A stretch of 47,468 nucleotides of DNA from a virus, in the IMG/VR virus record IMGVR_UViG_3300041402_000641, positions 1 to 47,468 of that record; one strand, 5' to 3'. The position numbers were made by a program, and so were the translations under genes. This document shows, one piece after another, positions 1,555-31,724 of this stretch. Below the pieces are notes generated by a model. It saw only the letters and a program-made list of their open reading frames with translations. It did no database searches and was not told the DNA's origin. Within the stretch, counting starts at the first letter, position 1; the number at the start of each line of letters is the position of its first letter.

Positions 1555-1869
1555 TTAAAAAGGTTCAAAATTGCCGCAAGCTTGGCACTGGTAATGATCA
1601 GCCCCAACTTCACCTGATACTGAATCAACCGCAATCATCATGGAGCGTTTGCACTCCGGACATTTGCTTGTCGGTATTCTGGTTCCCTTAATGCCAATTT
1701 TGTGAAGACTTGAACCAACGCTTTTAGCCTTCTGGAGTGCGGTAAAGGCATCAACTGAAACCCCTTCAAATTTATAGAGAGAATCGCCACGATATTGAAC
1801 GTTCATGGTTTCTTTGCCATTATGGCCAATCGCTACAACGTTAGAAGATGCAACTTTGTTCATTTTCAT
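1555..1869 (-). CDS. Zinc-ribbon protein (104 aa), shortened relative to its 3' copy
   Basis: Start MKMNKVASSNVV at 1869 is preferred over a longer TTG-initiated reading because GGGGATC precedes it. C-terminal CPECKRSMMIAV and YQCQACGNF form a two-CxxC zinc ribbon. The N-terminal half (VAIGHNGKETMNVQYRGDS) resembles small phage proteins of unknown role. A single base change makes TAA after EPF, whereas the copy at 47073-47408 continues for seven more residues. Confidence 0.65.
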   Translation of the reverse strand: MKMNKVASSNVVAIGHNGKETMNVQYRGDSLYKFEGVSVDAFTALQKAKSVGSSLHKIGIKGTRIPTSKCPECKRSMMIAVDSVSGEVGADHYQCQACGNFEPF

Positions 1870-2003
1870 TTTGATCCCCAAAAAGAAAACCCCGTCCAGG
1901 AAGTGAAATCGGATGCCATGGGTCCACAAGTAAACCCCGGTCTTTTTACAGACCGTCCAATTCCACCCCTGTCAGGGGTTTTGCTAGTTTTTAGTTTTAT
2001 CAT
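1866..2003 (-). CDS. Possible 45-residue ORF ahead of the zinc-ribbon gene
   Basis: ATG at 2003 opens MIKLKTSKTPDRGG and the frame stays open to a TGA overlapping the ATG at 1869. There is no convincing ribosome-binding site and the sequence contains two GC-rich hairpins, so it may instead be untranslated leader. Listed because the stop/start overlap is the coupling pattern used elsewhere in this genome. Confidence 0.2.
   Translation of the reverse strand: MIKLKTSKTPDRGGIGRSVKRPGFTCGPMASDFTSWTGFSFWGSK
1938..1978. repeat. Two adjacent hairpins in the leader region
   Basis: Inverted repeat cggtct (1938-1943) with agaccg (1950-1955), then cccct-gtc-agggg (1966-1978), the latter followed on the plus strand by a T-rich stretch to about 1996. 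They could be a weak plus-strand terminator or leader structure for the minus-strand zinc-ribbon gene. Confidence 0.35.
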
Positions 2004-2044
2004 GATCTTGTGTTTTATGGCAATACAAATCTACTCGTAAACGC

Positions 2045-2184
2045 CTATTCAGTCAAGACAACGCGGGATTTCTTCACCGATGGTATCCAGAGCGTCTTGG
2101 CACCGTGATCAGCCTGGAAATCTAAAACACGGTTGATCAGCAAAGAAACTGATTCAACGTGTTCAAGGCCAGTTTCTTTTTCAT
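2045..2184 (-). pseudogene. Small protein gene with one-base frameshift
   Basis: A good start (AAAGGAGTAAGGAAG then ATG at 2184) begins MKKK, but that frame stops after 15 codons. The neighbouring frame reads ETGLEHVESVSLLINRVLDF and on to VLTE, with a TAG at 2045-2047. ATG-to-stop is 140 bases; one extra A in the AAAAA run after the ATG would join them into a 46-residue protein starting MKKETGLEHVES. It lies directly downstream of the cassette array and looks like a native phage gene. True frameshift or base-calling error cannot be separated here. Confidence 0.5.
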
Positions 2185-2216
2185 CTTCCTTACTCCTTTT
2201 TTTGGTTGATTTTAGA

Positions 2217-2495
2217 TTATAAATTATAATCGCTCAGTCTTGGTGGCATCCTAAACCTTATTGCCTGATCTATTTCAGCCATGCCGCACAATATCTGTTT
2301 GCCATTTGGAAATATAGCCCTGTGCTGGTCGCATCTACCCTCTGCTATTAATTCGACAAATAGCAATATTCCATTGACGTATTTAAAGATAAACCCGTCT
2401 TTTCTTGGTTCTGGATAGTCGGGAGTAAATGCAAGCTGGTTTGCAAATCTTGCGACCTGAGCCTTTTCTCTGTCTATATCGTTGTAATTTCGCAT
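2217..2495 (-). CDS. Unknown protein at the downstream edge of the cassette array
   Basis: 92 residues from MRNYNDIDREKAQVARFANQ; a TTG 36 bases upstream is an alternative start but falls inside the attC-like remnant. No clear ribosome-binding site. I do not recognise the family. The stop lies within a perfect 17-base palindrome, gattataatttataatc. No attC follows it, so it is either a phage gene next to the array or a last cassette that has lost its site. Confidence 0.5.
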   Translation of the reverse strand: MRNYNDIDREKAQVARFANQLAFTPDYPEPRKDGFIFKYVNGILLFVELIAEGRCDQHRAIFPNGKQILCGMAEIDQAIRFRMPPRLSDYNL

Positions 2496-2508
2496 ATCTA
2501 TAAATGTC

Positions 2509-2556
2509 GTATAATGGTTTAAACCTTCCAAGGGCTTACAGTGTCTATGTTATACA
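2509..2556 (-). repeat. Degenerate attC-like site (end of module 19)
   Basis: On the minus strand GTATAAC overlaps the stop of the 74-residue ORF and ATTATAC closes the site (expected GTTATAC). Outer arms GTATAA/TTATAC pair; the interior has CCTTGGAAGG. Only 48 bp, so it may be the eroded edge of the array. Confidence 0.4.
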
Positions 2557-2774
2557 CACCATCCACAAACCATGTTCCCGCAGGTTGGGCATGTGCAGCC
2601 ATAGCACTCGTCGGCATAAGCTTCAAACTCTATATCGTTGCTCTTCAGCTCGGAACTCTCAGCGGCCCACATATTACAAGCTGCGTCACAATTCCAATTT
2701 GCATCAGGGTGCTTCTCATTAATTTTGGTTACCAACTTATGGCATCCACAGTTTTTATCTTCATATGGTTTCAT
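2550..2774 (-). CDS. Cassette 19: cysteine-rich protein (74 aa)
   Basis: Starts MKPYEDKNCGCHKLV behind AGGAGGAAAG. Ten cysteines in 74 residues, including NCGC, NCDAACN and a C-terminal CYGCTCPTCGNMVCGWC block that could bind one or two metal ions. No signal peptide. The stop TAA lies inside the following attC-like box. Family not recognised; small Cys-rich proteins recur in this array. Confidence 0.7.
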   Translation of the reverse strand: MKPYEDKNCGCHKLVTKINEKHPDANWNCDAACNMWAAESSELKSNDIEFEAYADECYGCTCPTCGNMVCGWCV

Positions 2775-2791
2775 CGTCTTTCCTCCTGGGT

Positions 2792-2881
2792 GTATAACAA
2801 AGCTAATTAACGCAGACGGGGCGAACTTGGTCGCTAAGGTCTGCGAGTTTCTAGTGCCGCTGGTTATCAGCGACGTTAACC
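2792..2881 (-). repeat. attC site of cassette 18
   Basis: Minus strand: GGTTAAC at the ORF stop, GTTATAC at the far end, 90 bp. The arms pair imperfectly through CGTCGCTGATAACCAGCGG-type and CGCAGAC/GTCTGCG segments. The GTTATAC end matches the form common in Vibrio-type sites. Confidence 0.7.
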
Positions 2882-3121
2882 CTTCATCATCTTATTCCAG
2901 CATTCTTCAGAGCATACACAAGGCTCTACTGGTTTGCCCATACATCCGCAGTCAAAAGCATTGCAGCAGGTTCTATACTCAAAACCTTCTACAAATTCTC
3001 CGCAGACCTCGCATTCTTCACCTACAGGGTTAACAACCGCATCAACTCGGACTTCGTCCTCTGGTTCTTCTTGGTAAACATCAACCATGCTAATATTGCT
3101 TTCGCATTCTCCACCAAACAT
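2876..3121 (-). CDS. Cassette 18: acidic cysteine-rich protein (81 aa)
   Basis: MFGGECESNISMVDV starts after GAGGAGG. An acidic N-terminal third is followed by CEVCGE, RTCCNAFDCGCMG and CVCSEECW, eleven cysteines in total, suggesting a compact metal-binding protein. The stop TAA is the TAAC of the next attC box. Function unknown. Confidence 0.7.
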   Translation of the reverse strand: MFGGECESNISMVDVYQEEPEDEVRVDAVVNPVGEECEVCGEFVEGFEYRTCCNAFDCGCMGKPVEPCVCSEECWNKMMKG

Positions 3122-3131
3122 ATTTATCCTC

Positions 3132-3157
3132 CTCGCCGGTTATGCAACACGTTATCT
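3132..3157 (-). repeat. Short attC-like junction of module 17
   Basis: Minus strand AGATAACG at the ORF stop, then a small GTT-gcat-AAC hairpin running straight into the GAGGAGG of the next ORF. No canonical GTTRRRY end. It may be a shortened attC or just an intercistronic hairpin within a two-ORF cassette. Confidence 0.35.
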
Positions 3158-3328
3158 TTGAAGAATAAAAACGACATCTTTGCCATCATCTCTGGAATCA
3201 GAATGACAACTGAAGTCACCACGGTCATAGCAAGATGTCCCGTTAAAAGCGCAATACCTACATGCATTGCCAAATGGCAGGTCATCGGTAGATTTTTCTG
3301 TATATGTTTTGCCTTCTATATCAATCAA
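3152..3328 (-). CDS. Cassette 17: small Cys protein (58 aa)
   Basis: The likely start is TTG at 3328 (LIDIEGKTYTEKS), eight bases after GAGG; a longer reading from 3361 would begin inside the upstream attC. Contains ACRYCAFNGTSCYDRGDF with three further spaced Cys/His positions. Stops in AGATAAC, the box of the following junction. Unknown function. Confidence 0.55.
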   Translation of the reverse strand: MIDIEGKTYTEKSTDDLPFGNACRYCAFNGTSCYDRGDFSCHSDSRDDGKDVVFILQR

Positions 3329-3346
3329 AAATATGACCTCAGAAAA

Positions 3347-3435
3347 AGATAACCAGCGCATTAAATCGACTGGAAGAATCTTTGTTTATTAAAATCTGCC
3401 AGCACGGGGCCAGCGGTTTATGCAAATCGTTAGTT
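3347..3435 (-). repeat. attC site of cassette 16
   Basis: AACTAAC start box and GTTATCT end box on the minus strand, 89 bp. Almost identical in both arms to the attC of cassette 1 (9851-9938); they differ mainly near the apex, which is typical of attC sites from the same resident integron. Confidence 0.75.
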
Positions 3436-3440
3436 TCTCT

Positions 3441-3680
3441 TTATTCCGCCTTGTGCGCAAAGTCAAACTTTGGCTTTTTTACAAAACAGACATCATTGCC
3501 ACACATAACTAGCTGCAACAAATCTCCTTCTTTAATATCGTCCATCGCAAATACAGTTGTTGCACTATATTTAGGTTCTTCAGCTTTTATGGCTGTAATT
3601 AAAATAACTGCGTTAAAGAAAATAATCCCACCAATTCCGGTCAGAAACAACCCTAATAATCCTTGTATAACTGGGTGCAT
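3441..3680 (-). CDS. Cassette 16: small membrane protein (79 aa)
   Basis: MHPVIQGLLGLFLTGIGGII starts after AAGGAGGATC. Residues 5-31 form one hydrophobic segment, followed by a soluble tail with VMCGNDVCFVKKPKF. Probably inner-membrane anchored with a small cytoplasmic or periplasmic domain. The TAA stop is six bases before the attC box. Family unknown. Confidence 0.65.
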   Translation of the reverse strand: MHPVIQGLLGLFLTGIGGIIFFNAVILITAIKAEEPKYSATTVFAMDDIKEGDLLQLVMCGNDVCFVKKPKFDFAHKAE

Positions 3681-3705
3681 TTTAGATCCTCCTTAAATTA
3701 AACAA

Positions 3706-3795
3706 AACTAACCAGTGTATAAAGCGCGACCAGGAGAGGCTATGTTCGTCAAAATCTGCACCATCCGGGCTGGCCGCTTATCCAAATCGTTCTGT
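3706..3795 (-). repeat. attC site of cassette 15
   Basis: Minus strand ACAGAAC start box (first box slightly off consensus), GTTAGTT end box, 90 bp, arms GATTTGGATAAGCGGCC/CGCTTTATACACTGG pairing imperfectly; the centre shares CAAAATCTGC-type sequence with the other sites. Confidence 0.65.
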
Positions 3796-3797
3796 GG

Positions 3798-4187
3798 TCA
3801 CTTGGCCCGATCCAATGCGGCCATAAGTTTTCCCATAATCTCGTTGGCATCTTTCGCAATATAACCCATGCGCTCCACATCGCATAATTCAAGGTGTTTG
3901 CCGTATCGTGCTTGGGCTTTCGTTGCCATTGTTCTGATAAGTTCAAACTGGGCAAATGCTTGGCCAAGCTCGGAGATTTTGGCCGAGTCAACCACAGAAC
4001 CAAGCATTTCATCTGACCCCGAGGGGTTGCTCGGCCTGGGGGCTTTGGCCACCAGGTTTCCGTTGCCTTTTTGCTCCACAAAACACTCGTGGCACAAGTC
4101 ATCATCAACACACTTTTGGTGTCTGTCTCCAGCTCGGCACATTCCGCAAAGTTCAACTTTCTTTTCACAGTTCAAACAAGTACCCAT
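3798..4187 (-). CDS. Cassette 15: zinc-finger-like protein (129 aa)
   Basis: MGTCLNCEKKVELCGMCRAG starts after AAAGGAG. CLNC, CGMC, CVDDDLCHEC give two candidate zinc sites in the first 36 residues. The rest is a Pro/Ser linker (KAPRPSNPSGSD) and an alpha-helical region ending ALDRAK. Another long frame on the same strand (3749-4168) lacks such features and is taken as a shadow. Function unknown. Confidence 0.65.
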   Translation of the reverse strand: MGTCLNCEKKVELCGMCRAGDRHQKCVDDDLCHECFVEQKGNGNLVAKAPRPSNPSGSDEMLGSVVDSAKISELGQAFAQFELIRTMATKAQARYGKHLELCDVERMGYIAKDANEIMGKLMAALDRAK

Positions 4188-4199
4188 GTTATCTCCTTT

Positions 4200-4236
4200 C
4201 TAAACCCCTCGGGGCCAATGAATTTCAACGTTGTGA
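4200..4236 (-). repeat. Short attC-like junction of module 14
   Basis: Minus strand TCACAACG, a GGCCCCGAGGGGTT hairpin, then GTTTAGA leading into AAAGGAG. The end box deviates from GTTRRRY by one base. Only 37 bp. Confidence 0.4.
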
Positions 4237-4238
4237 GT

Positions 4239-4550
4239 CTACATTTTACCAGCCATATAAGCATCGGCCAACCTGTCTCGTATAGTTCCCCAATCACCAT
4301 CATCAAGGCCACTCACAGCAGCGACAAGCTTTTCATCGTTTTTCATCATACCATCAGCCCAGCTATAGGCTGGCTGGTAATCTGCCTCACAACCACCCGC
4401 TACAGCAGACCCCTTGGCCTCGGTTTTCTGGGGGCATTTAACTTCCTCAGAGTAGCTGCATTCATTGCAATATAGAAATTTTCCAGGGCATCCAGGGTCG
4501 TCAACCAGTGTTTCAATTTCGCAGTCTGGGCAAATATCTCCAATCTCCAT
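4239..4550 (-). CDS. Cassette 14: zinc-ribbon protein (103 aa)
   Basis: MEIGDICPDCEIETLV starts after AAAGGAG. CPDC near residue 7, CPGKFLYCNEC at 21-31 and CPQ at 39 make a zinc-ribbon N-terminus; the C-terminal half (YSWADGMMKNDEKLVAAVSG) is helical and acidic. Resembles small 'restriction alleviation/zinc ribbon' style proteins only in general layout; I do not assign a family. Confidence 0.65.
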   Translation of the reverse strand: MEIGDICPDCEIETLVDDPGCPGKFLYCNECSYSEEVKCPQKTEAKGSAVAGGCEADYQPAYSWADGMMKNDEKLVAAVSGLDDGDWGTIRDRLADAYMAGKM

Positions 4551-4562
4551 TTTTTCTCCTTT

Positions 4563-4599
4563 CTAGCCAGCCAAGGGTCGGCTGATCTTTACGTTATGC
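4563..4599 (-). repeat. Short attC-like junction of module 13
   Basis: Minus strand GCATAACG then CAGCC-gacccttGGCTG stem, then GCTAGAAAGGAG. The start box is canonical; the end box has become part of the next ribosome-binding region. Confidence 0.4.
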
Positions 4600-4899
4600 T
4601 TAAATGTGCTCAAAGAAGCGCCCGGTTTTCCCACACATATTAGTCAATATAGCTGCTGGCCAAGATAATAATCGTTCGGTTCCACAACTTTCCATAGCTC
4701 TGTTATTAACTTTGTCTCTGCATTTTGTCCTTATGCAGTCTGCAAAATTACCACTCGGATGTTCATCGCAGTATTTACATTCTTTGCATAATTTCCCATT
4801 GCCATAAAGCAACCTAATAAAAGGCATAACCAGGCGTTTCACGCGGAACCCAAGGGGTCGGCGGTCTGTGGTTGGCATTTCTTCCTGTGTTTTCGTCAT
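4600..4899 (-). CDS. Cassette 13: cysteine-rich basic protein (99 aa)
   Basis: MTKTQEEMPTTDRRPLG follows AGGAGGTAATTTGAA. Basic N-terminal half, then CKECKYCDEHPSGNFADC and TKCRDKV, suggesting a four-Cys metal site. The stop TAA sits one codon before the junction's GCATAACG. Function unknown. Confidence 0.6.
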   Translation of the reverse strand: MTKTQEEMPTTDRRPLGFRVKRLVMPFIRLLYGNGKLCKECKYCDEHPSGNFADCIRTKCRDKVNNRAMESCGTERLLSWPAAILTNMCGKTGRFFEHI

Positions 4900-4911
4900 T
4901 TCAAATTACCT

Positions 4912-4950
4912 CCTGTTCACCCTTGGTTCCGGTGAACTTAAACGTTATGG
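4912..4950 (-). repeat. Short attC-like junction of module 12
   Basis: Minus strand CCATAACG, then TTCACC-ggaaccaagGGTGAA stem, then CAGGAGG. A clean 6-bp stem between a canonical start box and a ribosome-binding site. Confidence 0.4.
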
Positions 4951-5151
4951 TGCAGAAAATACTTTATCAATTAACCCACCGTTTTTAATGATGATGAGTA
5001 GCCGCACCGTATTTGCATGTTGCAGCGTGGGGTTGCGGCGATTCTCGATCATGTTGTATTGCTGTTGGTGCCGCATCCCCATCGCCGTTGCCATTTGTTT
5101 TTGAGTCAGGCCCAGCGATTGCCGGGCCTCTTTTAGTTGTTGGCTGGTCAT
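4945..5151 (-). CDS. Cassette 12 second gene: XRE-type HTH regulator (68 aa)
   Basis: Start MTSQQLKEARQSLGLTQKQM at 5151, overlapping the previous gene's stop (TAATG). SLGLTQKQMATAMG and YNMIENRRNP fit the two helices and capping region of a Cro/CI-type helix-turn-helix. The short C-terminal tail, LLIIIKNGG, is hydrophobic. Likely represses the promoter with the 8-bp inverted repeat ahead of the gene pair. Partner and layout resemble toxin-antitoxin or self-regulated modules, but no known toxin is recognisable. Confidence 0.75.
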   Translation of the reverse strand: MTSQQLKEARQSLGLTQKQMATAMGMRHQQQYNMIENRRNPTLQHANTVRLLIIIKNGGLIDKVFSAP

Positions 5152-5414
5152 TATATTTCTTCGACCTCGTATCCCTCGATATTCCATTCCATTCCATCAA
5201 GGGGAACATCCTTGGTATTTTCTGTGTCCTGGAGATACACTGCCTTTACAGAGTAATGTCCGGTCTCAGCGTAACCCTCATACACGTCATACCCGGCCCA
5301 TTCTGTGCCATCGGTCACGTAACAGGCATTTTCGCAATTTGTTTGCTCTGCTGCATTTACCAGCTCTTCGCCCACTATCTTTACCGCTTCGTCTCTGCTT
5401 ATTAAGTTTCTCAT
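5151..5414 (-). CDS. Cassette 12 first gene: acidic protein (87 aa) paired with HTH regulator
   Basis: MRNLISRDEAVKIVGEELVN starts after GGAGACC. The protein is strongly acidic, with TNCENACYVTDGTEW and a repeat of Tyr/Asp/Glu toward EVEEI. It is co-transcribed with the HTH gene through a TAATG overlap. Toxin, antitoxin or other role cannot be assigned from sequence. The leader before it (AAGAGAGGGCGATTAAGCC) resembles the leader of the cassette 4 gene pair. Confidence 0.65.
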   Translation of the reverse strand: MRNLISRDEAVKIVGEELVNAAEQTNCENACYVTDGTEWAGYDVYEGYAETGHYSVKAVYLQDTENTKDVPLDGMEWNIEGYEVEEI

Positions 5415-5455
5415 GGTTGGTCTCCGGTTGGCTTAATCGCCCTCTCTTACCTACC

Positions 5456-5494
5456 ATTATACAACTATTGATTTACATTGCAAGCGAAATCAAT
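5456..5494 (-). promoter_or_regulatory. Promoter with operator-like inverted repeat for cassette 12
   Basis: Minus strand -35 TTGCAA (5483-5478), 16-base spacer, -10 TATAAT (5461-5456). ATTGATTT and AAATCAAT (5487-5494 and 5467-5474) form an 8+8 inverted repeat bracketing the -35 box, a fitting operator for the HTH protein encoded downstream. Confidence 0.65.
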
Positions 5495-5551
5495 GATTTG
5501 TTTAAATAAAGTTGATTATCTTTACTTTTATAATAATTTCGGTGATTTACA

Positions 5552-5612
5552 CCATAACCAAAAAATTAGAGCGGACACGGTAAGGCTGTGCCTCTCAATA
5601 TTGGCGTTATAT
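5552..5612 (-). repeat. attC site of cassette 11
   Basis: Minus strand ATATAAC start box, GTTATGG end box, 61 bp, arms GCCAATATTGAGAGGC and GTCCGCTCTAATTTTTTGG pair around GAG/CTC. The TGA stop of the ORF lies two bases before the start box. Confidence 0.65.
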
Positions 5613-5613
5613 T

Positions 5614-5823
5614 TCAATACGGCTTAAATTCTTTTTTGAAGATCCGCCATTTTGAGTCGTCACTTCCTGCGGGGGTTCTCATTTGCACATATTCGCCCGA
5701 GTCAGTCAGTGTTCTAATCATCATCGCACCAGCTGGCAGATAGTCTTCCCTAATGTGCGCTGTTTCAATCCCGGTAATATAGCTTTTCCTAATACGTTCT
5801 TTTAACTGTTCCATTTCCATCAC
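5614..5823 (-). CDS. Cassette 11: small protein (69 aa)
   Basis: Start GTG or the adjacent ATG (MEMEQLKERIRKSYITG) after GGAGG. The segment IREDYLPAGAMMIRTLTDSG followed by VQMRTPAG looks like a compact alpha/beta fold. No metal motif or membrane segment. Family not recognised. Confidence 0.6.
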   Translation of the reverse strand: MMEMEQLKERIRKSYITGIETAHIREDYLPAGAMMIRTLTDSGEYVQMRTPAGSDDSKWRIFKKEFKPY

Positions 5824-5840
5824 GTTTCAACCTCCTAAAA

Positions 5841-5930
5841 ATATAACAAAAAAATTAACTGGATGGCTAGATCGCCGGTGGCCCTGCGGGAATTTTCCCT
5901 GTAGCCCACCAGTTATTTAGCACGTTATAA
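5841..5930 (-). repeat. attC site of cassette 10
   Basis: Minus strand TTATAAC overlapping the ORF stop, GTTATAT end box, 90 bp. Arms GCTAAATAACTGGTGGGC and CCATCCAGTTAATTTTTTTG share CTGG/CCAG pairing, the usual attC geometry. Confidence 0.75.
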
Positions 5931-6152
5931 ACCGCAGTAAACTATATCAATACTATCGGGCTGGCCGTTGTCTTTCTGCGGCCCATTATAGCAATCGCAT
6001 ACAACCACGTTGTCGCTTCCAACACCGTAGCCAAATTCTATTACTTGGTTGTCACAATCCGCGAAACAGTCGTAGCAAATTTCGCATAAGTTAGTAATCA
6101 TGTTGTTAGCACTGTAGCATCCGGGTCGTTCTTCAGGTCTTTCGCTAGTCAT
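5925..6152 (-). CDS. Cassette 10: cysteine-rich protein (75 aa)
   Basis: MTSERPEERPGCYSANN starts after AGGAGATTTG. NLCEICYDCFADCDNQ and VVCDCYNGP supply seven cysteines, with IVYCGL at the end. Acidic, soluble, probably metal binding. Stop TAA is part of the attC box. Unknown family. Confidence 0.65.
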   Translation of the reverse strand: MTSERPEERPGCYSANNMITNLCEICYDCFADCDNQVIEFGYGVGSDNVVVCDCYNGPQKDNGQPDSIDIVYCGL

Positions 6153-6170
6153 TTCAAATCTCCTATAAGT

Positions 6171-6258
6171 TTATAACAAATAATTAGAGCGGATGTGAAT
6201 ACCTCCGCGTTTTATGGTGCTACCATTTTAGGCGCACCCCTCAATTCAATCGTTGGGT
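6171..6258 (-). repeat. attC site of cassette 9
   Basis: Minus strand ACCCAAC (perfect RYYYAAC) two codons after the ORF stop, GTTATAA end box, 88 bp. GATTGAATTGAG pairs imperfectly with CTCTAATTATTTG. Confidence 0.7.
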
Positions 6259-6260
6259 TG

Positions 6261-6437
6261 CTAATCGGCTTCTTTCTCTTCGGCCCCGTAACATAATTGG
6301 GCGTGTATGGTAATTGTCTTTCCGCAACCATCACATTCATGGTCAACAGTGTCTTGGTCTGCCAAGTTGTGCCACGGCCTCGCTTCGCTCTGATCTTGTT
6401 CCTCACCGCAATATGGGCATTCCAAATTATCAAACAT
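6261..6437 (-). CDS. Cassette 9: zinc-ribbon protein (58 aa)
   Basis: ATG at 6437 follows GGGAGGTAG. MFDNLECPYCGEEQ and HECDGCGKTITIH are a paired CxxC zinc ribbon of the kind common in small phage and bacterial proteins. A longer frame on the same strand (6212-6433) overlaps it but has no binding site or recognisable motif and reads through the attC, so it is rejected. Confidence 0.75.
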   Translation of the reverse strand: MFDNLECPYCGEEQDQSEARPWHNLADQDTVDHECDGCGKTITIHAQLCYGAEEKEAD

Positions 6438-6459
6438 CGTTACTACCTCCCGTATGGCA

Positions 6460-6549
6460 ACCCAACCAGTAAATCAAGCGGATTGCCAGAAGTTGTGCGG
6501 CCCTACGGGAAGTTACTACGTAGGAAACCGCTTATTTAAAACGTTGTAT
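6460..6549 (-). repeat. attC site of cassette 8
   Basis: Minus strand ATACAAC start box and GTTGGGT (perfect GTTRRRY) end box, 90 bp. AAATAAGCGG and CCGCTTGATTTACTGG arms pair. It follows the repeat cassette rather than an ORF. Confidence 0.75.
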
Positions 6550-6570
6550 TGCCTAAATTGCTTCCGTATA

Positions 6571-7153
6571 GGCTGCAATTAGTGGCAACTGTTTTCCGTG
6601 CTATTTCCAGCCTCTTTCGGCTCAAATTAGTGCCAAGTATAGTTGGCGTTATTTTGTCGATTGACCGGCTGTAATTAGTTCAAACTGTTTCAAGATTAGT
6701 TCCAACTGTTTTGTGGGGCTTTCCGCTGCAAAAAGTTCCCGTTATAGTTTCAACTAATTTGTGCTGTAAATTATTTTCGTGGCAGAAATTAGCGGTGGTT
6801 ACAGTTGAAACTAATTTCTGACTTTGACCGCACAAATTAACTCGTGCTAATTTAAATTTAGTTCAAACTAATTTCTGTAGTTCGTGGCACAAATTAGTTT
6901 CAACTGTTTTCAATTTAGTTCCAACTAATTTCCCTGGGCTTCGTCACAAATTAGTTTGAGTTGTAATCAAAACTAATTTGCGTGGTTGCCACCAGAAATT
7001 AACAGCTCCTTATTTTAGACTTAGTTTGAACTAATTTGTGCCACCCTCGGCTGTAATTAGTTTGGATTAATTCCAATTTAGTTCAAACTGTTTTAAGCCG
7101 TTTCGGGCTTCAATTAGTAGAGACTGTAGTTGCTGCTAAATTTGTGCCTCCGG
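6571..7153 (-). repeat. Cassette 8: ORF-less array of about 11 tandem hairpin repeats
   Basis: Plus-strand units begin near 6571, 6619, 6667, 6725, 6781, 6830, 6886, 6943, 6991, 7049 and 7106, usually as GGC(T/A)nnAATTAGTT, and contain a facing AACTAATTT or AACTGTTT. Lengths fall in two classes, 47-49 and 56-58 bases. Several units fold almost perfectly: CAGAAATTAG (6783-6792) with CTAATTTCTG (6811-6820). No ORF of useful length spans it on either strand. It occupies a full cassette between two attC sites. Role unknown: structured RNA, protein-binding array or folded DNA are all possible. Confidence 0.75.
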
Positions 7154-7155
7154 CA

Positions 7156-7212
7156 ATACAACCAGCCAGTACAGCGGACGTAACGGCCCGCCGCTGACCG
7201 GTATCGTTATGC
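7156..7212 (-). repeat. attC site of cassette 7
   Basis: Minus strand GCATAAC start box, GTTGTAT end box, 57 bp. ACCGGTCAGCGGCGG and CCGCTGTACTGGCTGG arms pair well. Nearly the same as the attC of cassette 3 (9248-9303). Confidence 0.75.
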
Positions 7213-7213
7213 A

Positions 7214-7528
7214 CTACTCAACTAATTCAATTTTTCTGCCGCAATAAGGGCAGTATGTAAAATGCCAGGTTGTTGTTGTGGCTTTGCCTATAAATCTACC
7301 GTTACCCCTCTGCCCCGTCTCACCAGCGCAACCCAGGTTGAAATGCCCGTCAAACGCCTTAGTCCATGTGCATAACAACGGGGTAGAGTTCGACTCCTTA
7401 CCCGCCGCTTTTGGCAGTTCTTTGGCGTAATATGTTTTTGAAAACTCAGCGCGTCCGCAACTGTAGCATTCTGTTTGCTGAACCATGTTGCTCAAGCCAC
7501 ATTCTTGACATATTTTTATGGCATCCAT
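7214..7528 (-). CDS. Cassette 7: zinc-ribbon protein (104 aa)
   Basis: MDAIKICQECGLSNMV starts after AGAGGTGAT. CQECG and CYSCG form an N-terminal ribbon; CPYCGRKIELVE at the end and an internal LGCAGETGQRGNGRF give a second motif typical of small phage zinc proteins ('YCPYCGRKI'). Function unknown. Stop TAG precedes the attC box by two bases. Confidence 0.7.
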   Translation of the reverse strand: MDAIKICQECGLSNMVQQTECYSCGRAEFSKTYYAKELPKAAGKESNSTPLLCTWTKAFDGHFNLGCAGETGQRGNGRFIGKATTTTWHFTYCPYCGRKIELVE

Positions 7529-7537
7529 TTTATCACC

Positions 7538-7577
7538 TCTTCAGTTGGGGTCGGGCGTCTCACCCAAAACGTTAAGT
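7538..7577 (-). repeat. Short attC-like junction of module 6
   Basis: Minus strand ACTTAACG overlapping the ORF stop, GGGT-gagacgcccgACCC stem, then CAACTGAAGAGGTG. The arm sequence TAACGTTTTGGGT also occurs at the start of the cassette 4 attC, supporting descent from a full site. Confidence 0.45.
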
Positions 7578-7928
7578 TTCACTTTGGGGGTTAAATATCG
7601 TCCCGTAAAAAGCCCGCTCCATTGGGTCTGTGATCCCTTTTGCGTCCATCTCTTTATCCCTGGCTATTCCGGCCTCATGCACTTCGACTTCTTCCGGTGT
7701 TGGCGGGTCACAGTCCTCTTCGATCAACTCATATGTCACCCGGTATTTTGCTATCCCGTATTTTGCACGATCTTTATAAATGTCGTGGCAATTTGAACTC
7801 CTTGCAGAGTCAGCAGAATAGAAGTCGTATTCATCACAATAGGCCCGGCTATAAACACCTTCTGGTTTGCCTGTCGCCCTATTAATAATCCTAAACACCT
7901 CTTCTGGTTTTTTCTCTTTCGGTTTCAT
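7572..7928 (-). CDS. Cassette 6: soluble protein (118 aa)
   Basis: MKPKEKKPEEVFRIINRATG starts after AGAGGTGAC. The N-terminal part reads FRIINRATGKPEGVYSRAYC, reminiscent of 'F.i.n..Tg.p.gvysr' segments in small phage and bacterial proteins, followed by an acidic C-terminal half. No catalytic motif identified. The stop TAA is the TAAC of the junction. Confidence 0.6.
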   Translation of the reverse strand: MKPKEKKPEEVFRIINRATGKPEGVYSRAYCDEYDFYSADSARSSNCHDIYKDRAKYGIAKYRVTYELIEEDCDPPTPEEVEVHEAGIARDKEMDAKGITDPMERAFYGTIFNPQSET

Positions 7929-7953
7929 TTGTCACCTCTGTTTAATAAAAACA

Positions 7954-8043
7954 ACTTAACCAAATAATACAGCGGATGGCGGTATCATTGGCGGCGCTAC
8001 GCGGTTAAGTTGGGCAGCGCCACCGCTGATCAACACGTTATAT
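7954..8043 (-). repeat. attC site of cassette 5
   Basis: Minus strand ATATAAC overlapping the ORF stop, GTTAAGT (GTTRRRY) end box, 90 bp, with AGCGGTGGCGC/GCCATCCGCT arms. Confidence 0.75.
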
Positions 8044-8352
8044 TGCTCCAAAAATATCAGCTTTAGTTAGTTTTCCACCATCACTGGTGATTACAGATTT
8101 ACGGTTTTTCTTTTTTATTAGAATGTGTGGCATATTAAATACGGCCAATGTATCACCTATTTCAAGGGCATCGAATATGGCATCATATTTCAACTGTCTA
8201 GCTTTTCTTGTCAATTCAATTTTTTTAAGTTTCTCTGGCAGTCCAGCCTCATGTTTTGCTTTTTTATCGTCTTTTAGTTTTGAAATAAAAACATTATTTT
8301 CCCCGTCCATCCTTTTGCCGTTACGGTATGCCCATGCAGATTTAATAGCCAT
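8038..8352 (-). CDS. Cassette 5: basic protein (104 aa)
   Basis: MAIKSAWAYRNGKRMDG starts after GAGGATTTGTATTA. Rich in Lys with a central helical KLKKIELTRKARQLKYDAIF, then a beta-like GDTLAVFNMPHILIKKKN. Could bind nucleic acid by charge alone; no family recognised. Confidence 0.6.
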   Translation of the reverse strand: MAIKSAWAYRNGKRMDGENNVFISKLKDDKKAKHEAGLPEKLKKIELTRKARQLKYDAIFDALEIGDTLAVFNMPHILIKKKNRKSVITSDGGKLTKADIFGAI

Positions 8353-8367
8353 TAATACAAATCCTCA

Positions 8368-8456
8368 ATATAACAAAAGGTTAAACCAGACCCGAAAAGG
8401 CCGGGTTTATTAAAATCTGCCACTCCGGGGCGGGCAGGTTACCCAAAACGTTAAGT
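8368..8456 (-). repeat. attC site of cassette 4
   Basis: Minus strand ACTTAAC start box, GTTATAT end box, 89 bp; the centre shares CAGATTTTAATAAA with the sites of cassettes 1 and 16. Confidence 0.75.
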
Positions 8457-8828
8457 GTACTGGCCAAGTAGGTACTGGACAGCACCTTTATATTTAAGCA
8501 TTAGGGCAACACCAGCCTTTACCGGCCCGGTTACTTTGTTCTGCCCGTTTTCATATTTTTCGTAAGTTCGTGAGGACAGGCCAAGGCAATCGGCCATTAC
8601 TTTTTGAGTCAATCCTAGTTTTGTCCTGTCAGCTGTCAGTTTGGCTTTATCGTCAACCCCAGGTATATTCTGGATTCCCCCAGCGTTACCGACCACTTTC
8701 ACCCCGTTTCGTAACTCTATCAAGCAGCCACGCCTATTATCGTCAACATACTCGCCAAGTGATTTAGCCCCGGCTGGGAGGGGCATCGCCCCCCAGTAAA
8801 TGTTCTTTGCTTTTTCTGGATTCATCAT
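8451..8828 (-). CDS. Cassette 4 second gene: XRE-type HTH regulator (125 aa)
   Basis: Starts MMNPEKAKNIYWGAMPLPAG directly after the preceding gene's TAA, so probably translated by coupling. The C-terminal half has KLTADRTKLGLTQKVMADCL and SSRTYEKYENGQNKV, a good Cro/CI helix-turn-helix. The N-terminal 60 residues (ELRNGVKVVGNAGG) are of unknown type. Likely controls the palindromic promoter upstream of the pair. Confidence 0.7.
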   Translation of the reverse strand: MMNPEKAKNIYWGAMPLPAGAKSLGEYVDDNRRGCLIELRNGVKVVGNAGGIQNIPGVDDKAKLTADRTKLGLTQKVMADCLGLSSRTYEKYENGQNKVTGPVKAGVALMLKYKGAVQYLLGQYT

Positions 8829-8829
8829 T

Positions 8830-9114
8830 TTATTTTACCCAGCATATTTTGTTTTCGATCATTTCTACAACCTGAGTAGCAGTAACAACCGTTCCGGCGT
8901 CCATCTTTACGCCTACTTCATCGTCAAGCACAACATACTCAACAACTTTCATGTCTTGTGTGCCGTTGGTCAAAACATCGCCGATGCTAGGTACTTCTCC
9001 GGTCCAACCAGCTAATGGTAAGTTTTGCTCCGTGTGGTTTTTGTAATGAGCGGTATTTATGTTTTTGTTTCCAGCTTCGATTTCTTCTTTTATTATTTCG
9101 ATTATTGCTTTCAT
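8830..9114 (-). CDS. Cassette 4 first gene: acidic protein (94 aa) paired with HTH regulator
   Basis: MKAIIEIIKEEIEAGNKNIN starts after AGGAGATAAACC. Contains LAGWTGEVPSIGDVLTNGTQ and a Val-rich C-terminus ending KICWVK. No toxin fold is recognisable. It sits between its own promoter and an HTH gene, the same order as cassette 12, with a similar leader (TAAGAGATGAGGGCAACC). Confidence 0.6.
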   Translation of the reverse strand: MKAIIEIIKEEIEAGNKNINTAHYKNHTEQNLPLAGWTGEVPSIGDVLTNGTQDMKVVEYVVLDDEVGVKMDAGTVVTATQVVEMIENKICWVK

Positions 9115-9158
9115 GGTTTATCTCCTATTTGGCTTGGTTGCCCTCATCTCTTAACTTC

Positions 9159-9187
9159 ATTCTACACCCTAATAGGGTGCAAGTCAG
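9159..9187 (-). promoter_or_regulatory. Promoter with perfect 15-base palindrome for cassette 4
   Basis: Minus strand -35 CTGACT (9187-9182), 17-base spacer, -10 TAGAAT (9164-9159). The spacer contains CACCCTA-n-TAGGGTG (9165-9179), a perfect palindrome lying exactly between the two boxes, as expected of an autoregulatory operator. Confidence 0.65.
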
Positions 9188-9247
9188 TAGGCATATGCAA
9201 AATAAATTAAAATAATTTGCAAGAGATAAACCACTGTAAAAACGTAC

Positions 9248-9303
9248 ACTTAACCAGCCAGTACAGCCGACGTGTGCCACGCCGCTGACCGGTAATGTTA
9301 TGT
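9248..9303 (-). repeat. attC site of cassette 3
   Basis: Minus strand ACATAAC overlapping the ORF stop, GTTAAGT end box, 56 bp; arms ACCGGTCAGCGGCG and CGGCTGTACTGGCTGG pair. Sister of the cassette 7 site. Confidence 0.75.
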
Positions 9304-9483
9304 GCCTGTAGGTTTATAAGCACTGCACCAATCGCCAAGTTCAATATATTTTTTTGTTTTATTACAGCGTGTGCCTGCTCTTTTCTTGCAAGTTCCGCAA
9401 TTTTCAGGCGGGCCATCCAAGTGGCATCCATCCTTGCAGTCGCTTGTCAAACATTCGCCATCACAACCTTCTTTTGTTTTCAT
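9298..9483 (-). CDS. Cassette 3: cysteine-rich protein (61 aa)
   Basis: The start MKTKEGCDGECLTSDCKDGC at 9483 follows GGAGCGAAG; a longer frame would begin within the neighbouring attC. Nine cysteines, including NCGTCKKRAGTRCN and a final WCSAYKPTGT, a pattern like small phage zinc proteins ('C..C....C.....WC.aYkp'). Likely one or two zinc sites. Function unknown. Confidence 0.7.
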   Translation of the reverse strand: MKTKEGCDGECLTSDCKDGCHLDGPPENCGTCKKRAGTRCNKTKKYIELGDWCSAYKPTGT

Positions 9484-9504
9484 AGCTTCGCTCCAAGTTT
9501 TTGC

Positions 9505-9596
9505 ACATAACCAAAAAATCAAATCGACAGGGAGAAAGTGCGTGGCCCTATCGGGAAATTACTTGGTCGGCCTGCGGTTTATGCAGGTCGTTAAGT
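9505..9596 (-). repeat. attC site of cassette 2
   Basis: Minus strand ACTTAAC overlapping the ORF stop, GTTATGT end box, 92 bp. GACCTGCATAAACCGC and GTCGATTTGATTTTTTGG arms match the family of the cassette 1 and 16 sites. Confidence 0.75.
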
Positions 9597-9830
9597 GCGT
9601 ATGAAAACCTCAGTGCACCCAAGTTGGCTACCCTGCATTTTTCGCACACCAACCAGCCCCGGCCTGATATATTTGTCTATCTGAGATACAACACCATCGT
9701 TGTCGGCAAATACCACATGGTGGCGTTTGCAAACCTTATGATAGGCTATCAACGCACCATTGCGGTGTATTCTATTTTTGCTTTTGCTGTAATCAATATC
9801 TGGGTTAGTAAAAATGTTTAATTGGTGCAT
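9591..9830 (-). CDS. Cassette 2: small protein (79 aa)
   Basis: MHQLNIFTNPDIDYSKSKNR starts after AGGTG. Contains GALIAYHKVCKRHHVVFADN, with a His pair and basic residues; no certain motif. Stop TAA is in the attC box. Family not recognised. Confidence 0.6.
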   Translation of the reverse strand: MHQLNIFTNPDIDYSKSKNRIHRNGALIAYHKVCKRHHVVFADNDGVVSQIDKYIRPGLVGVRKMQGSQLGCTEVFIRT

Positions 9831-9850
9831 ATTAACACCTAAAATAAATC

Positions 9851-9938
9851 ACTTAACCAGCGCATTAAATCGACTGGAAGAAATTGGTTTATTAAAATCT
9901 GGCTCATCACGGCCAGCGGTTTATGCAAATCGTTATGT
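9851..9938 (-). repeat. attC site of cassette 1
   Basis: Minus strand ACATAAC overlapping the ORF stop, GTTAAGT (GTTRRRY) end box, 88 bp. TAACGATTTGCATAAACCGC aligns imperfectly with the reverse complement of the far arm, with TAAC/GTTA and CTGG/CCAG pairs. Confidence 0.8.
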
Positions 9939-10154
9939 GAAATTGTATCCATTAAAGGCACCACGCATAACGTCGAGGCGGCATTTAGGACATAAGGTAA
10001 TGATGATGTTAGGCCGCGCAACGCTTCTGAAATACAGATCAACGGCAATCTTTTTCTGGACATCACTTGAATTGTTGTGTCCATGCCTCACTGAAGAAAG
10101 ATGTGAAAGCAAGTCTTTCTTCATTTTCTTACATCCTGAACAGCGACTTTTCAT
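9933..10154 (-). CDS. Cassette 1: zinc-finger-like protein (73 aa)
   Basis: MKSRCSGCKKMKKDLLSHLS starts after GGTGAAATC. CSGCKK near the N-terminus and LCPKCRLDVMRG near the C-terminus form a CxxC pair around a basic middle, suggesting a zinc-stabilised DNA- or RNA-binding protein. It is the first module of the array; no GTT box is visible upstream of it, so the insertion point on this side is not a canonical attI. Confidence 0.65.
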   Translation of the reverse strand: MKSRCSGCKKMKKDLLSHLSSVRHGHNNSSDVQKKIAVDLYFRSVARPNIIITLCPKCRLDVMRGAFNGYNFT

Positions 10155-13978: not shown

Positions 13979-14236
13979 ATGGATAAAATACCATGTGTCA
14001 CAATCGACATTACCTCGGCAAAGAAGATTCTAACCCCGGAAAACATAAAGGAACAATTCGAGCATCAAAGAATTGATGAAAATTTATATCACAAAGCTGT
14101 TTGTTATAATGAAATGATTGGCAAAGAAGAACTTCAAATTGACGGGACAAATGAAGAATTGATTCTTTGCCGGGATATGTTGAGATTTGTGTTTTCTCAA
14201 ATTCCTGATCATTTAAAAAGACAATGGGTGAAATAA
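13979..14236 (+). CDS. Unknown protein of plus operon (85 aa)
   Basis: MDKIPCVTIDITSAKKILTP starts after GAGAGG. Acidic and helical, ending LKRQWVK. The stop overlaps the next start (TAATG). No similarity recognised. Confidence 0.55.
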   Translation: MDKIPCVTIDITSAKKILTPENIKEQFEHQRIDENLYHKAVCYNEMIGKEELQIDGTNEELILCRDMLRFVFSQIPDHLKRQWVK

Positions 14237-14568
14237 TGCTGAAATTATTAAAAAAGATTTTCTGGAAAAAGAACCAATTCAAAACCCAACCATACAAACT
14301 GACTATTCATCATTGCTCAAGTGCTGATGAAATTGAAAACACGACCAACTGTCCTGTGATGGGAACATTGCAAATGATAAAGTGTGTTATTTTTTCAAAT
14401 ACACACGCGACCTCATTCACACTGATTGAAGACCCTGCCAAACATAATATTTGCTTGATATTTGATAGTGTCCCATCAAATATATGGGATTTATTTCACC
14501 AATACATGCCATGCGGTATAGCTTATGAATTTTTTGACAAAGAAATGTATGTGGATATGAAGGGATAA
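14236..14568 (+). CDS. Unknown protein of plus operon (110 aa)
   Basis: Start at 14236 (MLKLLKKIFWKKNQF) after GGGTGAA. Cationic amphipathic N-terminus followed by a mixed alpha/beta body with TIHHCSSADEIEN and NICLIFDSVPSN. Not recognised. Confidence 0.55.
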   Translation: MLKLLKKIFWKKNQFKTQPYKLTIHHCSSADEIENTTNCPVMGTLQMIKCVIFSNTHATSFTLIEDPAKHNICLIFDSVPSNIWDLFHQYMPCGIAYEFFDKEMYVDMKG

Positions 14569-17397: not shown

Positions 17398-20013
17398 TTA
17401 CGTATATACAATCATCATCACGCCGGTAGATGTTCGGTAAAAATCCCCGTCGGTCAACCCTCCGCTTTTAGCTGCTGTGTTATCTGCGTAAACAGGGGTG
17501 GCCGTTGTGGCCAGGTTTATAATGCCTGTCGATTTAATAACTAGATGCTCGACCCAAGCACCCAGGCCATTAATCCTTGATCTAAACAGAATTCTTTGAG
17601 GTGCTGCTTTTGGGCCAGGATCTTCATTTACTACATCACCGTCTATTGCAAACTCTATGGAAGCAGTGTTATACCAACTCTCCCCTACCCACGGCCCTGA
17701 AATAATACCACCGGCATTATCTCCATCAACCGGTACTAACGGCGTGTCGTAAGTTCCCCTTGCCCTCCCGAATGTTATGGTACCCCTGTTCCCCGAGGTC
17801 CCACTTGATACGGAGGTGCAATTGAGGGAAACGGAACTACCTTGGTTAGATAGTAACAGGTTCGTAGAACCAGGGATGAGAGACGCGGGCAAAGGTGCAG
17901 TGTGCCCCTCCACCCGTAATAGCCCGGTGTTATCGATACAGACCTTCGTCGCACCATCGACCTGCCACTCCTGTAGAAGCTTGACCCCGGACCCCGTATT
18001 GCCCTCCGTGACATCAATACGGAGTACTGTATACCCCGCAGATGTGGTCTGTACGATAGTTGGAGCAATATTTACACCGACAAAATGTCCACTACTACCT
18101 GTAACTGTCCCTGTAAACATATCGATAGCATTCCTGGGAGGGGGGGTTATGCTAAAGTTAGAACCCTGTAAAGTAAGCGTTGTGTTATTTCCTCCTGTTA
18201 CAGAGGAACAAACTCCAAGTGATGCTATATCTGTATTTGCGCCTGACCTGGCTATTTCGCTAGATACAGATAATGGATCTCCTGTAGTGCCATCACCAGT
18301 CAAGGTGCTGTTATGCTCAACAACTGACAAATAATTTCCTGATGGCGCACCAATAAAATTAGCCCTGGTTCCTGTCAAGTTTTCTACACTGTGAATTTGC
18401 CAGTTATTGCCTGTGTAATGCAAAATTGTTTTGGTAATAAAAATAAATTCGGTGAATAAATCGGTTAAATTACCAAGTGTTACACTGCTCGGTGCCAACA
18501 CCTCTTGCTCCGGAAGACTGGTTAACGACTGACCCTGTACCCATAAAAATCTATAATTCTGGGAGTCTCCATCAGCGGCGGGAACAGCCACCAGCCAAAC
18601 ACTCATATAATTACCGTTTGTCATCGGCGATTGTTGCCAGTTTGGACTTACAAACTCATTCCAAAACGGTGTACTACCTGACAGTGGCACGATATCAGAT
18701 TCACCAACGGTAAATTCTAAAATACCGGACCCAGTTAAAAATGCAGTTGTGTATAGTCCTGTGGTCAGTGCATCATTAATCGTGCTGATATCCTCATCTT
18801 TTATGTTTGTCGTTGATACATCCGGGCGTCTGTCATCCGGGGTTATCGAAGCTGTTGTGTAATTGCTGAGTGTTCCACCTGATATCCTGTAAGTTCCCAC
18901 AGTTTGGTGAAATTCTTCGTGTGACTGCCAATTCATTAAGCCATGTACTTCTCGGATTGCATATTTGTCATTTGTGCCAAAATGAACAAACGCTATCCAG
19001 ACATCGCTAAACTCCCAAACATCTGTTGCCCAAATAAAATTTATTCCGTCAGTTGAGGCTAAATAATATGCTTCATCGAGGGTTGCGTCATGAGCGTCTG
19101 ATGTCCACGGTGACTCTAATTCTTTAACTTGGCCACGCCATGAATATTTAAGATTGCCTGTCAATGTTATTGTCCGGGCAATTTGGTCATATTCAACAAG
19201 GATATTTTCATTGTCATGAAACCCTGTTGGATCACCGGACGCAACGGCTGCATCAGTTGCAGCTATAATGGGAGTCGGGCTAGATGCGTAAATTGAAATG
19301 TGACCAAATTCCTCAGCATCCATCGTAAACCCGATTGGAACAGCATAATCCGGTGGTGTCGGTGGTGTTGTTGTATATTCCCCAGGTGTGGTTGACACAT
19401 ACAAAAGCTTGCTGGCACCAAGTACCCTGGTATCATAATTATCAAAAATTCCTCTAGTGCTTACCCAGCCAAATTCACCCGGCTCGATGTCATTGGTAAC
19501 GGCACCTGTCAATCGCATACCTATTACCGCAGAGGATAGTTGCATATTAAAAGTAAAATCGTCATACGCGCCGACATTCATTACCGGCGACCCTCTCAGC
19601 ATTTTTGTACCTGTTGCATTCCTGATTCTCGCCAAATCAGAGAGCAACATGCCATGTTTTACCCCGTCAATATCGGATCTATATGACAACATGTGAGTGT
19701 CTGGATCGTGGGAAAGCGTACCTTCCTGCGTGGGAACACCGGTCGGGGCTGTGTTAAAACCGATATGATTCAAAAGGCCGAGATTTAACTCTCTGATCAA
19801 CCACCGTTTGGTTCCTGGGTTTACGTCTGGCGCAATGATATTAGGTGGTGATTCAGCGGCCCCTGAACTTGCATCAAGGGAATAGAAATAAACGGCACCA
19901 CTTGGAACGACTACAATCGCGGCGTCACCGTCAACGAGCAAATCACCATCGATATTGTCAAGGGCTCCAAAACCACCGCCTGTCAAGTCTGTTGCTGGCC
20001 AATATTTAGACAT
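17398..20013 (-). CDS. Tail fibre protein (about 871 aa)
   Basis: Starts (MSKYWPATDLTGGGFGALDN) after GAGGG; ATG 20016 is an alternative. N-terminal part SGAVYFYSLDASSGAAESPP and APDVNPGTKRWLIRE resembles fibre attachment domains; the middle is beta-rich; the C-terminal part has repeated LTGDGTTGDPLSV and a final YADNTAAKSGGLTDGDFYRT, a common fibre ending. Likely receptor binding. A large TAA-separated extension follows. Confidence 0.7.
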   Translation of the reverse strand: MSKYWPATDLTGGGFGALDNIDGDLLVDGDAAIVVVPSGAVYFYSLDASSGAAESPPNIIAPDVNPGTKRWLIRELNLGLLNHIGFNTAPTGVPTQEGTLSHDPDTHMLSYRSDIDGVKHGMLLSDLARIRNATGTKMLRGSPVMNVGAYDDFTFNMQLSSAVIGMRLTGAVTNDIEPGEFGWVSTRGIFDNYDTRVLGASKLLYVSTTPGEYTTTPPTPPDYAVPIGFTMDAEEFGHISIYASSPTPIIAATDAAVASGDPTGFHDNENILVEYDQIARTITLTGNLKYSWRGQVKELESPWTSDAHDATLDEAYYLASTDGINFIWATDVWEFSDVWIAFVHFGTNDKYAIREVHGLMNWQSHEEFHQTVGTYRISGGTLSNYTTASITPDDRRPDVSTTNIKDEDISTINDALTTGLYTTAFLTGSGILEFTVGESDIVPLSGSTPFWNEFVSPNWQQSPMTNGNYMSVWLVAVPAADGDSQNYRFLWVQGQSLTSLPEQEVLAPSSVTLGNLTDLFTEFIFITKTILHYTGNNWQIHSVENLTGTRANFIGAPSGNYLSVVEHNSTLTGDGTTGDPLSVSSEIARSGANTDIASLGVCSSVTGGNNTTLTLQGSNFSITPPPRNAIDMFTGTVTGSSGHFVGVNIAPTIVQTTSAGYTVLRIDVTEGNTGSGVKLLQEWQVDGATKVCIDNTGLLRVEGHTAPLPASLIPGSTNLLLSNQGSSVSLNCTSVSSGTSGNRGTITFGRARGTYDTPLVPVDGDNAGGIISGPWVGESWYNTASIEFAIDGDVVNEDPGPKAAPQRILFRSRINGLGAWVEHLVIKSTGIINLATTATPVYADNTAAKSGGLTDGDFYRTSTGVMMIVYT

Positions 20014-31169: not shown

Positions 31170-31724
31170 TTATTCCACCACAAAACGGATTGAATTTAAC
31201 AACGTCCCTTGATCGATCAGCGGGTTATCCTCGCCTTTTTTCTTTCTGATAGTTGATGGTGCATTTGCCGGGCTTTTCAGAGTGACCATCTTACGTTTTA
31301 TATCCGCTTCAACTTTCAAACCTACAATTTCAAGACCCGCAAAAACTTCAAGGTCACCATCTATAATCCTGCCATAAAGAGTTTCGACCAGTCTGTCATA
31401 ATTATCTTCATTCTCGTCAAAGTTGCTTCTGATGTATGATCTGGCCGGAATTGTGATTTTATGTGGTTTAGTGAATCCTGCCACTTTACCGCCCCGGCTC
31501 AAAGACACAAACTTTGCCTTACCATCTTTGCCAATAATATATGGCGTTCCGCCAGGATGATTAATGGTTGCACCAAATTCATTGGCAGCGGCGATTACAA
31601 GAAGCGTTTGTGATTCATCTTCCTGAACACCAATTTTCACAACACTTGATTGCTGACGAAAGCGGCGTTTTAATGCTGCCCATCCGTGATCAACTTCTTT
31701 TGTTGTGACGGTTCCTTTGATCAT
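31170..31724 (-). CDS. HK97 gp10-like / neck protein
   Basis: 184 residues. RQQSSVVKIGVQEDESQTLL, VIAAANEFGATINHPGGTP, IPARSYIRSNFDENEDNYDR and the final DNPLIDQGTLLNSIRFVVE follow the order of gp10/gpG-like connector proteins, with the 'P.R.yiR' and 'LidtG.l..SI' motifs. Confidence 0.75.
   Translation of the reverse strand: MIKGTVTTKEVDHGWAALKRRFRQQSSVVKIGVQEDESQTLLVIAAANEFGATINHPGGTPYIIGKDGKAKFVSLSRGGKVAGFTKPHKITIPARSYIRSNFDENEDNYDRLVETLYGRIIDGDLEVFAGLEIVGLKVEADIKRKMVTLKSPANAPSTIRKKKGEDNPLIDQGTLLNSIRFVVE

Follow-up and report, generated by a model that had tools for sequence, protein, structure and literature searches.

Within a run of small genes in a tailed phage lies a cassette-like stretch that has no open reading frame (ORF) and is filled almost entirely by short inverted repeats, which raises the question of what such a cassette carries. 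The DNA analyzed, referred to here as the window, is the whole of IMG/VR virus record IMGVR_UViG_3300041402_000641 (47,468 bases). It encodes tailed-phage structural proteins (sheath, portal, terminase, maturation protease, and baseplate), and the small-gene run, with attC-like sites in reverse orientation, occupies about 2–10 kb (~2000–10000). The original prediction for this locus was an array of tandem hairpins in two size classes, diverging in sequence yet preserved in structure, within a complete cassette with its own attC.

Mechanical searches identified the repeating element as a 14-bp palindrome, TTAGTTNNAACTAA, with the core TTAG-N6-CTAA and a 2-nt center; this, rather than a tandem hairpin, is the conserved element of the array (Table 1). 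Seventeen sites score at least 9/12, ten at least 10/12, and three are perfect, and shuffles of the array itself averaged 0.13 sites at 10/12 or better and never exceeded two (ten observed). Near-copies of TTAGTTNNAACTAA with two or fewer mismatches number 11 in the 47-kb window (whole-window shuffle mean, 3.03); ten are inside the array, and the sole copy outside it is at 34612. The array is real and non-random, far beyond chance.

Eleven units with facing TTAG...CTAA arms are present at 6571–7153, as had been predicted, with spacings between 5′ TTAG anchors of 48, 48, 57, 57, 48, 57, 57, 48, 58, and 57 bp. The two unit size classes (48 and 57–58 bp, about 9 bp apart) were likewise confirmed; TTAG and the facing CTAA are separated by ~22 or 31 bp and CTAA and the next TTAG by 26 bp (once 35 bp), which gives the 9-bp difference between the classes. 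Distances between strong sites are 21, 36, 48, and 57 bp. No ORF was found across 6571–7153, and the pair of arms given as an example in the prediction is a true inverted repeat; both observations agree with what had been claimed.

Table 1. Coordinates of the palindrome array, its cassette, and the cassette boundaries in the window
Feature	Position	Strand	Basis
Array, ~17–20 copies of TTAGTTNNAACTAA in 48- and 57-bp units	6571..7153		Site scoring and shuffles
Palindrome pair, 21 bp apart (TTAGTTCAAACTGT, TTAGTTCCAACTGT)	6675..6709		Palindrome search
Example unit of the original prediction, arms 6783–6792 and 6811–6820, perfect 10-bp inverted repeat	6783..6820		Direct reading
Perfect palindrome TTAGTTCAAACTAA	6858..6871		Palindrome search
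Palindrome pair spaced by 21 bp (TTAGTTTCAACTGT and the perfect TTAGTTCCAACTAA), 36 bp beyond the 6858 copy	6894..6928		Palindrome search
Perfect palindrome TTAGTTTGAACTAA	7021..7034		Palindrome search
Palindrome pair spaced by 21 bp, 36 bp beyond the 7021 copy	7057..7091		Palindrome search
Whole ORF-less cassette, integron orientation (array plus attC-like site at low-coordinate end)	6454..7165	-	Boxes read at both ends; no ORF across array
attC-like site closing the array cassette (ATACAAC...AAGCGG...CCGCTT...GTTGGGT)	~6454..6549	-	Direct reading and DNA fold, z -2.41
attC-like site of the neighboring cassette, the other boundary (GCATAAC...CAGCGG...CCGCTG...GTTGTAT)	~7159..7213	-	Direct reading and DNA fold, z -1.17

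One explanation is a structured non-coding RNA built of hairpins in tandem and transcribed either from the cassette or independently, as its own unit. The array does fold well, at -189.9 kcal/mol (z -9.1) on the plus strand and with z -5.6 on the minus strand; such a strong overall fold is expected from a self-complementary motif alone. If structure were selected, cognate arms should match better than arms taken from other units. In the window hairpins, the cognate mean energy on the plus strand was -9.12, compared with -9.19 after arm swapping (P = 0.52), and the minus strand gave P = 0.72; for the linkers, the corresponding values were P = 0.53 (plus) and 0.48 (minus). Column shuffles of the five arrays that share the same geometry attained the pairing actually seen in 632 (self), 982 (inner), and 448 (outer) of 1000 trials. 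Neither test revealed compensatory change or covariation: cognate arms fared no better than swapped ones on either strand, and no pairing mode stood out. Pairs that never vary carry no signal either way, so that a structure of invariant pairs would be compatible with both tests. The proposal that the units diverge yet keep pairing through selection on structure is therefore not upheld by the arm swaps.

Other features bear on the same model. A palindrome with a 2-nt center cannot form a hairpin of its own, no Rfam family matched the window array or 11 relatives at the gathering threshold, and a search around the window array gave no sigma-70-like promoter. Stem mismatches in the window are divided about equally between G-T (7) and A-C (5), as they are in most arrays; in one phage (G003), they number 36 G-T and 16 A-C over three arrays, which would suit an RNA. 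Also in favor of an RNA, consensus promoters point into arrays of two Firmicutes-type phages (G001 and G003), and a complementary pair, AUAGCCUC(A/G)UU and AAUGAGGCUAU, encloses two other arrays (L034 and L073). The RNA-hairpin model was rejected, since the folding energy is good but the arms do not coevolve and the window shows no G-T bias; as a rival explanation, we consider a structured RNA unlikely. Conservation of half-sites explains the pairing within units, and the array is read as double-stranded DNA sites rather than as a selected RNA or DNA structure.

The prediction of a complete cassette with its own attC stands in part. RYYYAAC/GTTRRRY-like boxes and CAGCGG/CCGCTG-type arms can be read directly at both array boundaries, but a simple purpose-made attC scanner returned no site there, and DNA folds give the boxes partial support. 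Both boundaries were assigned by eye rather than by a tool and are accordingly termed attC-like. No integrase was recognized among the 20 window proteins scanned.

Six related virus records do not have the array. They include a collinear relative (G222; 71–85% DNA identity in aligned blocks) that has other sequence at the position of the cassette run and gave no match to the longer attC-like strings tested. Because these relatives are without the array and the window has no site elsewhere except that at 34612, the array is an accessory rather than a core replication or packaging site. The single outside site also disfavors a phage repressor acting on phage promoters. Window positions 1680–1849 and 47219–47388 both match one 170-bp stretch of the collinear relative (31671–31840), so a gene segment is present twice in the window.

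Similar arrays occur in other phages, on unrelated contigs. Pattern scans of viral contigs, which by design retrieve the TTAG-N6-CTAA motif only and give no frequency among all palindrome arrays, returned 11 contigs with arrays, compared with none for a reversed-half-site control made of the same letters; a second, scrambled-palindrome control returned three contigs, none with a comparable array. Another palindrome cluster, of the GTTTCGAAAC type, was seen in the control scan in two virus contigs (L214 1998–2055 and L215 2051–2108). The alternating 21–22/36-bp geometry of the window recurs with the same palindrome in a virus contig (L034), a Clostridium prophage (L073), and the two arrays of another phage (G004). 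Arrays with a 20-bp period, nearly all intergenic, are found in G001, G002, and G003, and related phages with Firmicutes-type promoters carry either such arrays or shorter clusters (G001–G003, G005, G007, G008, G010, and G011). Three further loci (L014, L025, and L043) are homogenized tandem repeats and were not counted as the same element.

A direct search with the window's own unit and fuller arms returned no viral contigs, and blastn against named phage and plasmid records gave only weak chance matches. The lack of matches in Rfam and in those records agrees with the statement that no element of this form is known. The original prediction was to fall if covariation did not exceed chance and homologous arrays were lacking elsewhere; covariation does not exceed chance, yet arrays of similar form are present elsewhere, and these point to protein-binding DNA sites.

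Such sites could be recognized by a phage protein, as iterons of a replication origin, a partition centromere, or a packaging site. The 21–22-bp spacing is iteron-like, four DnaA boxes lie in a row beside a G003 array, and arrays are located between terS and terL in the Clostridium prophage (L159 7156–8000) and in the virus contig L034 (3320–3930; locus coordinates). Against this, the array travels in a cassette, is missing from relatives of the window phage, and is not conserved at the same place, and some phages carry several separate arrays. BLASTP clustering recognized no DNA-binding gene common to the array-bearing phages; the most widely shared protein clusters are HAD-like, exonuclease-like, and others taken as structural from reading their sequences. 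A role of this kind is very improbable. Packaging in particular was rejected as a general role: none of 23 terL relatives of the L073 prophage has the array (at the terS–terL position, one of them, L165, shows no more than a short hairpin, GCCTATAGCCTCATTCATGG...AATGAATGAGCAATAGCC), and other phages carry theirs elsewhere. Two late-region arrays of G004 (14149–14450 and 18204–18390) share a 3′ tail, GATAGCCAGTGTTACAAAAGTGTT, which suggests duplication or movement of the whole element.

A host regulator might instead control phage genes through these sites, as CtrA does in alphaproteobacterial phages, where dense intergenic sites are bound and regulated (PMC9437464). Several arrays in Firmicutes-type phages are indeed near phage promoters. 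The window array, however, fills a cassette with neither ORF nor recognizable promoter, and tens of sites exceed what promoter control needs, so we regard this explanation as quite improbable.

The palindrome is also found in bacterial genomes. Exact copies of GTTAGTTNNAACTAAC are present in 14 of 196 Clostridia genomes (the reverse-read control, in 4), and genes for FeoA-domain and/or DtxR-family proteins lie within ~500 bp at half of the exact loci read (8/16), with one to three copies of the palindrome beside the genes; Pfam confirms the FeoA and iron-dependent-repressor domains. An independent all-species scan added three more feoA/dtxR-type loci (L067, L072, and L075), and the L087 genome encodes a DtxR-family protein with a TTAG-N6-CTAA site beside its gene. 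Cooperative binding to tandem 6-N6-6 palindromes is known for SloR, a member of the DtxR family (PMC12096823). The position of the palindrome beside feoA and dtxR genes in Clostridia, together with the tandem 6-N6-6 layout that sites of this family can show, makes a metal-dependent repressor of the DtxR/MntR/SloR family the best candidate for the protein that might bind the array, an assignment made by genomic association. Two observations weigh against it: the feo/DtxR link is drawn from Clostridia, whereas database relatives of the window phage infect mostly Gram-negative bacteria, and no DtxR-family protein exceeded the cut-off in the chromosome with the L073 array, in Porphyromonas somerae, or in Carboxylicivirga, all of which have such palindromes. 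BrxR-type defense regulators were rejected as binders; their inverted repeats of 10–11 bp with a 5-bp spacer are unlike the palindrome here.

The bacterial copies also bear on a selfish or neutral dispersed repeat of the REP type, duplicating and moving between genomes without serving the phage. P. somerae has dispersed intergenic clusters of TTAGTTGCAACTAA with a 22-bp period (L071, L074, L077, and L079), and its genome holds 67 near-copies, compared with 8 for a control pattern. One Desulfobacterota genome contains a paired-palindrome inverted-repeat element that was not found in 344 other genomes of the phylum. The shared 3′ tail of the G004 arrays and the absence of the array from all 23 terL relatives of the L073 prophage, with only the short hairpin in one, are consistent with such a repeat, and the partly in-frame Treponema repeats described below can be added to them. 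The array copies nevertheless have diverged spacers and linkers with half-sites retained, which argues for selection on sites; the reversed-half-site control yielded no arrays, and in Clostridia, feo/dtxR promoters are linked to this very sequence. We judge a repeat of this kind improbable, to about the same degree as a structured RNA.

In Treponema, 21-bp repeats contain the same palindrome (L083 5380–5540, L076 5623–5780, and L086 1–136); some are in frame inside genes (SLVTTND repeats), and one set is just upstream of a ribosome-binding site. They are partly in-frame coding and were not counted as the same element.

Other host operators are concentrated in the array-bearing Firmicutes-type phages. 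In counts that are not blind, the operators having been chosen by hand and some after candidate motifs had been seen in the sequences, there are 28 sites with the HisR operator consensus cacTTTAnnnnnnTAAAgtg (PMC9413887), 25 of them intergenic, compared with 0.4 expected and none for reversed controls; the motif had already been noted when the literature identified it as that of HisR. CtsR sites number 5 (0.0 expected), Rex sites 4 (0.2 expected), and LexA sites 18 (7.2 expected). The weak points of this evidence are that the LexA excess comes mainly from one phage (G007) and that DnaA boxes show no overall excess. Many HisR sites are within 130 bp of TTAG-N6-CTAA sites, and most of those in G007 and G008 lie close to such sites. 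Mixed operator-like clusters (HisR, TTAG-N6-CTAA, CtsR, Rex, LexA, and the row of four DnaA boxes) are located in intergenic islands of G007 (91.8–107.7 kb), G008 (152–158 kb), G003 (41.4–42.4 kb), and G005 (0.3–2.3 kb), the virus records behind L017, L055, L053, and L058. In Clostridia genomes, the HisR-type motif is about as frequent as its control, and two of nine exact loci precede a gene read as hisZ.

Because the related phage arrays match sites that switch host genes, the cassette may serve as a decoy, sequestering a host regulator. Its ~17–20 operator-like TTAG-N6-CTAA palindromes, mostly in pairs two helical turns apart, would be expected to be bound along the array by a dimeric host DNA-binding protein; with the phage genome present in many copies, titration of that protein by the array would lift its repression of host genes. 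We infer binding in the host of the window phage, titration, and benefit to the phage. The promoters that point into the G001 and G003 arrays count against a pure decoy, which needs none. An operator-like array of double-stranded DNA that acts as a decoy for a host repressor is the explanation we favor, tentatively and with rather less than even confidence. The broader proposal, that phages carry dedicated ORF-less operator sponges that titrate host repressors (metal, histidine, heat-shock, and redox regulators) and can be packed as a mobile integron cassette, is more doubtful.

If it is true, phages use naked DNA, and not proteins, to counter or exploit the regulation of their hosts; an operator sponge would then be a cheap and modular tool, overlooked by annotation pipelines for want of an ORF. 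It would account for the long runs of intergenic palindromes in islands of gut-type phages, and the sites carried by each phage would predict the host regulon that it disturbs. Integron cassettes would be able to move regulatory DNA rather than genes.

Several known systems resemble parts of this arrangement. REP elements are chromosomal hairpin-forming repeats, and REP/BIME sequences are short intergenic palindromes in tandem or in pairs; unlike these, the arms of the array do not coevolve. HisR operators of Firmicutes (PMC9413887) share phage islands with TTAG-N6-CTAA arrays at many consensus sites but are absent from the window itself. Operators of the DtxR/MntR/SloR family, such as the SloR recognition elements (PMC12096823), can be tandem 6-N6-6 palindromes, and the identical core palindrome is present at the Clostridia feoA/dtxR loci; there it occurs in one to three copies beside genes, in contrast to ~17–20 in a cassette without genes. 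Clusters of attC sites without an integrase (CALINs) are known in phages (PMC9892861), and the window phage, with its cassette array, attC-like sites, and no recognized integrase, is similar, except that its array cassette lacks an ORF and is made up of repeats resembling binding sites. A literature search with six explicit forms of the palindrome found none printed in a relevant context.

The nearest known kind is the intergenic regions of alphaproteobacterial phages that are dense in host CtrA sites, for which binding has been shown and a role in the timing of lysis proposed (PMC9437464). There, as proposed here, intergenic regions dense in sites for a host factor have evolved independently in several lineages; the factor there is CtrA, whereas here TTAG-N6-CTAA palindromes, as putative operators, occupy an integron-type cassette devoid of ORFs. 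An ORF-less cassette of operator-like sites is a new form within this kind; dedicated operator sponges, should they be proven, would constitute a kind of their own.
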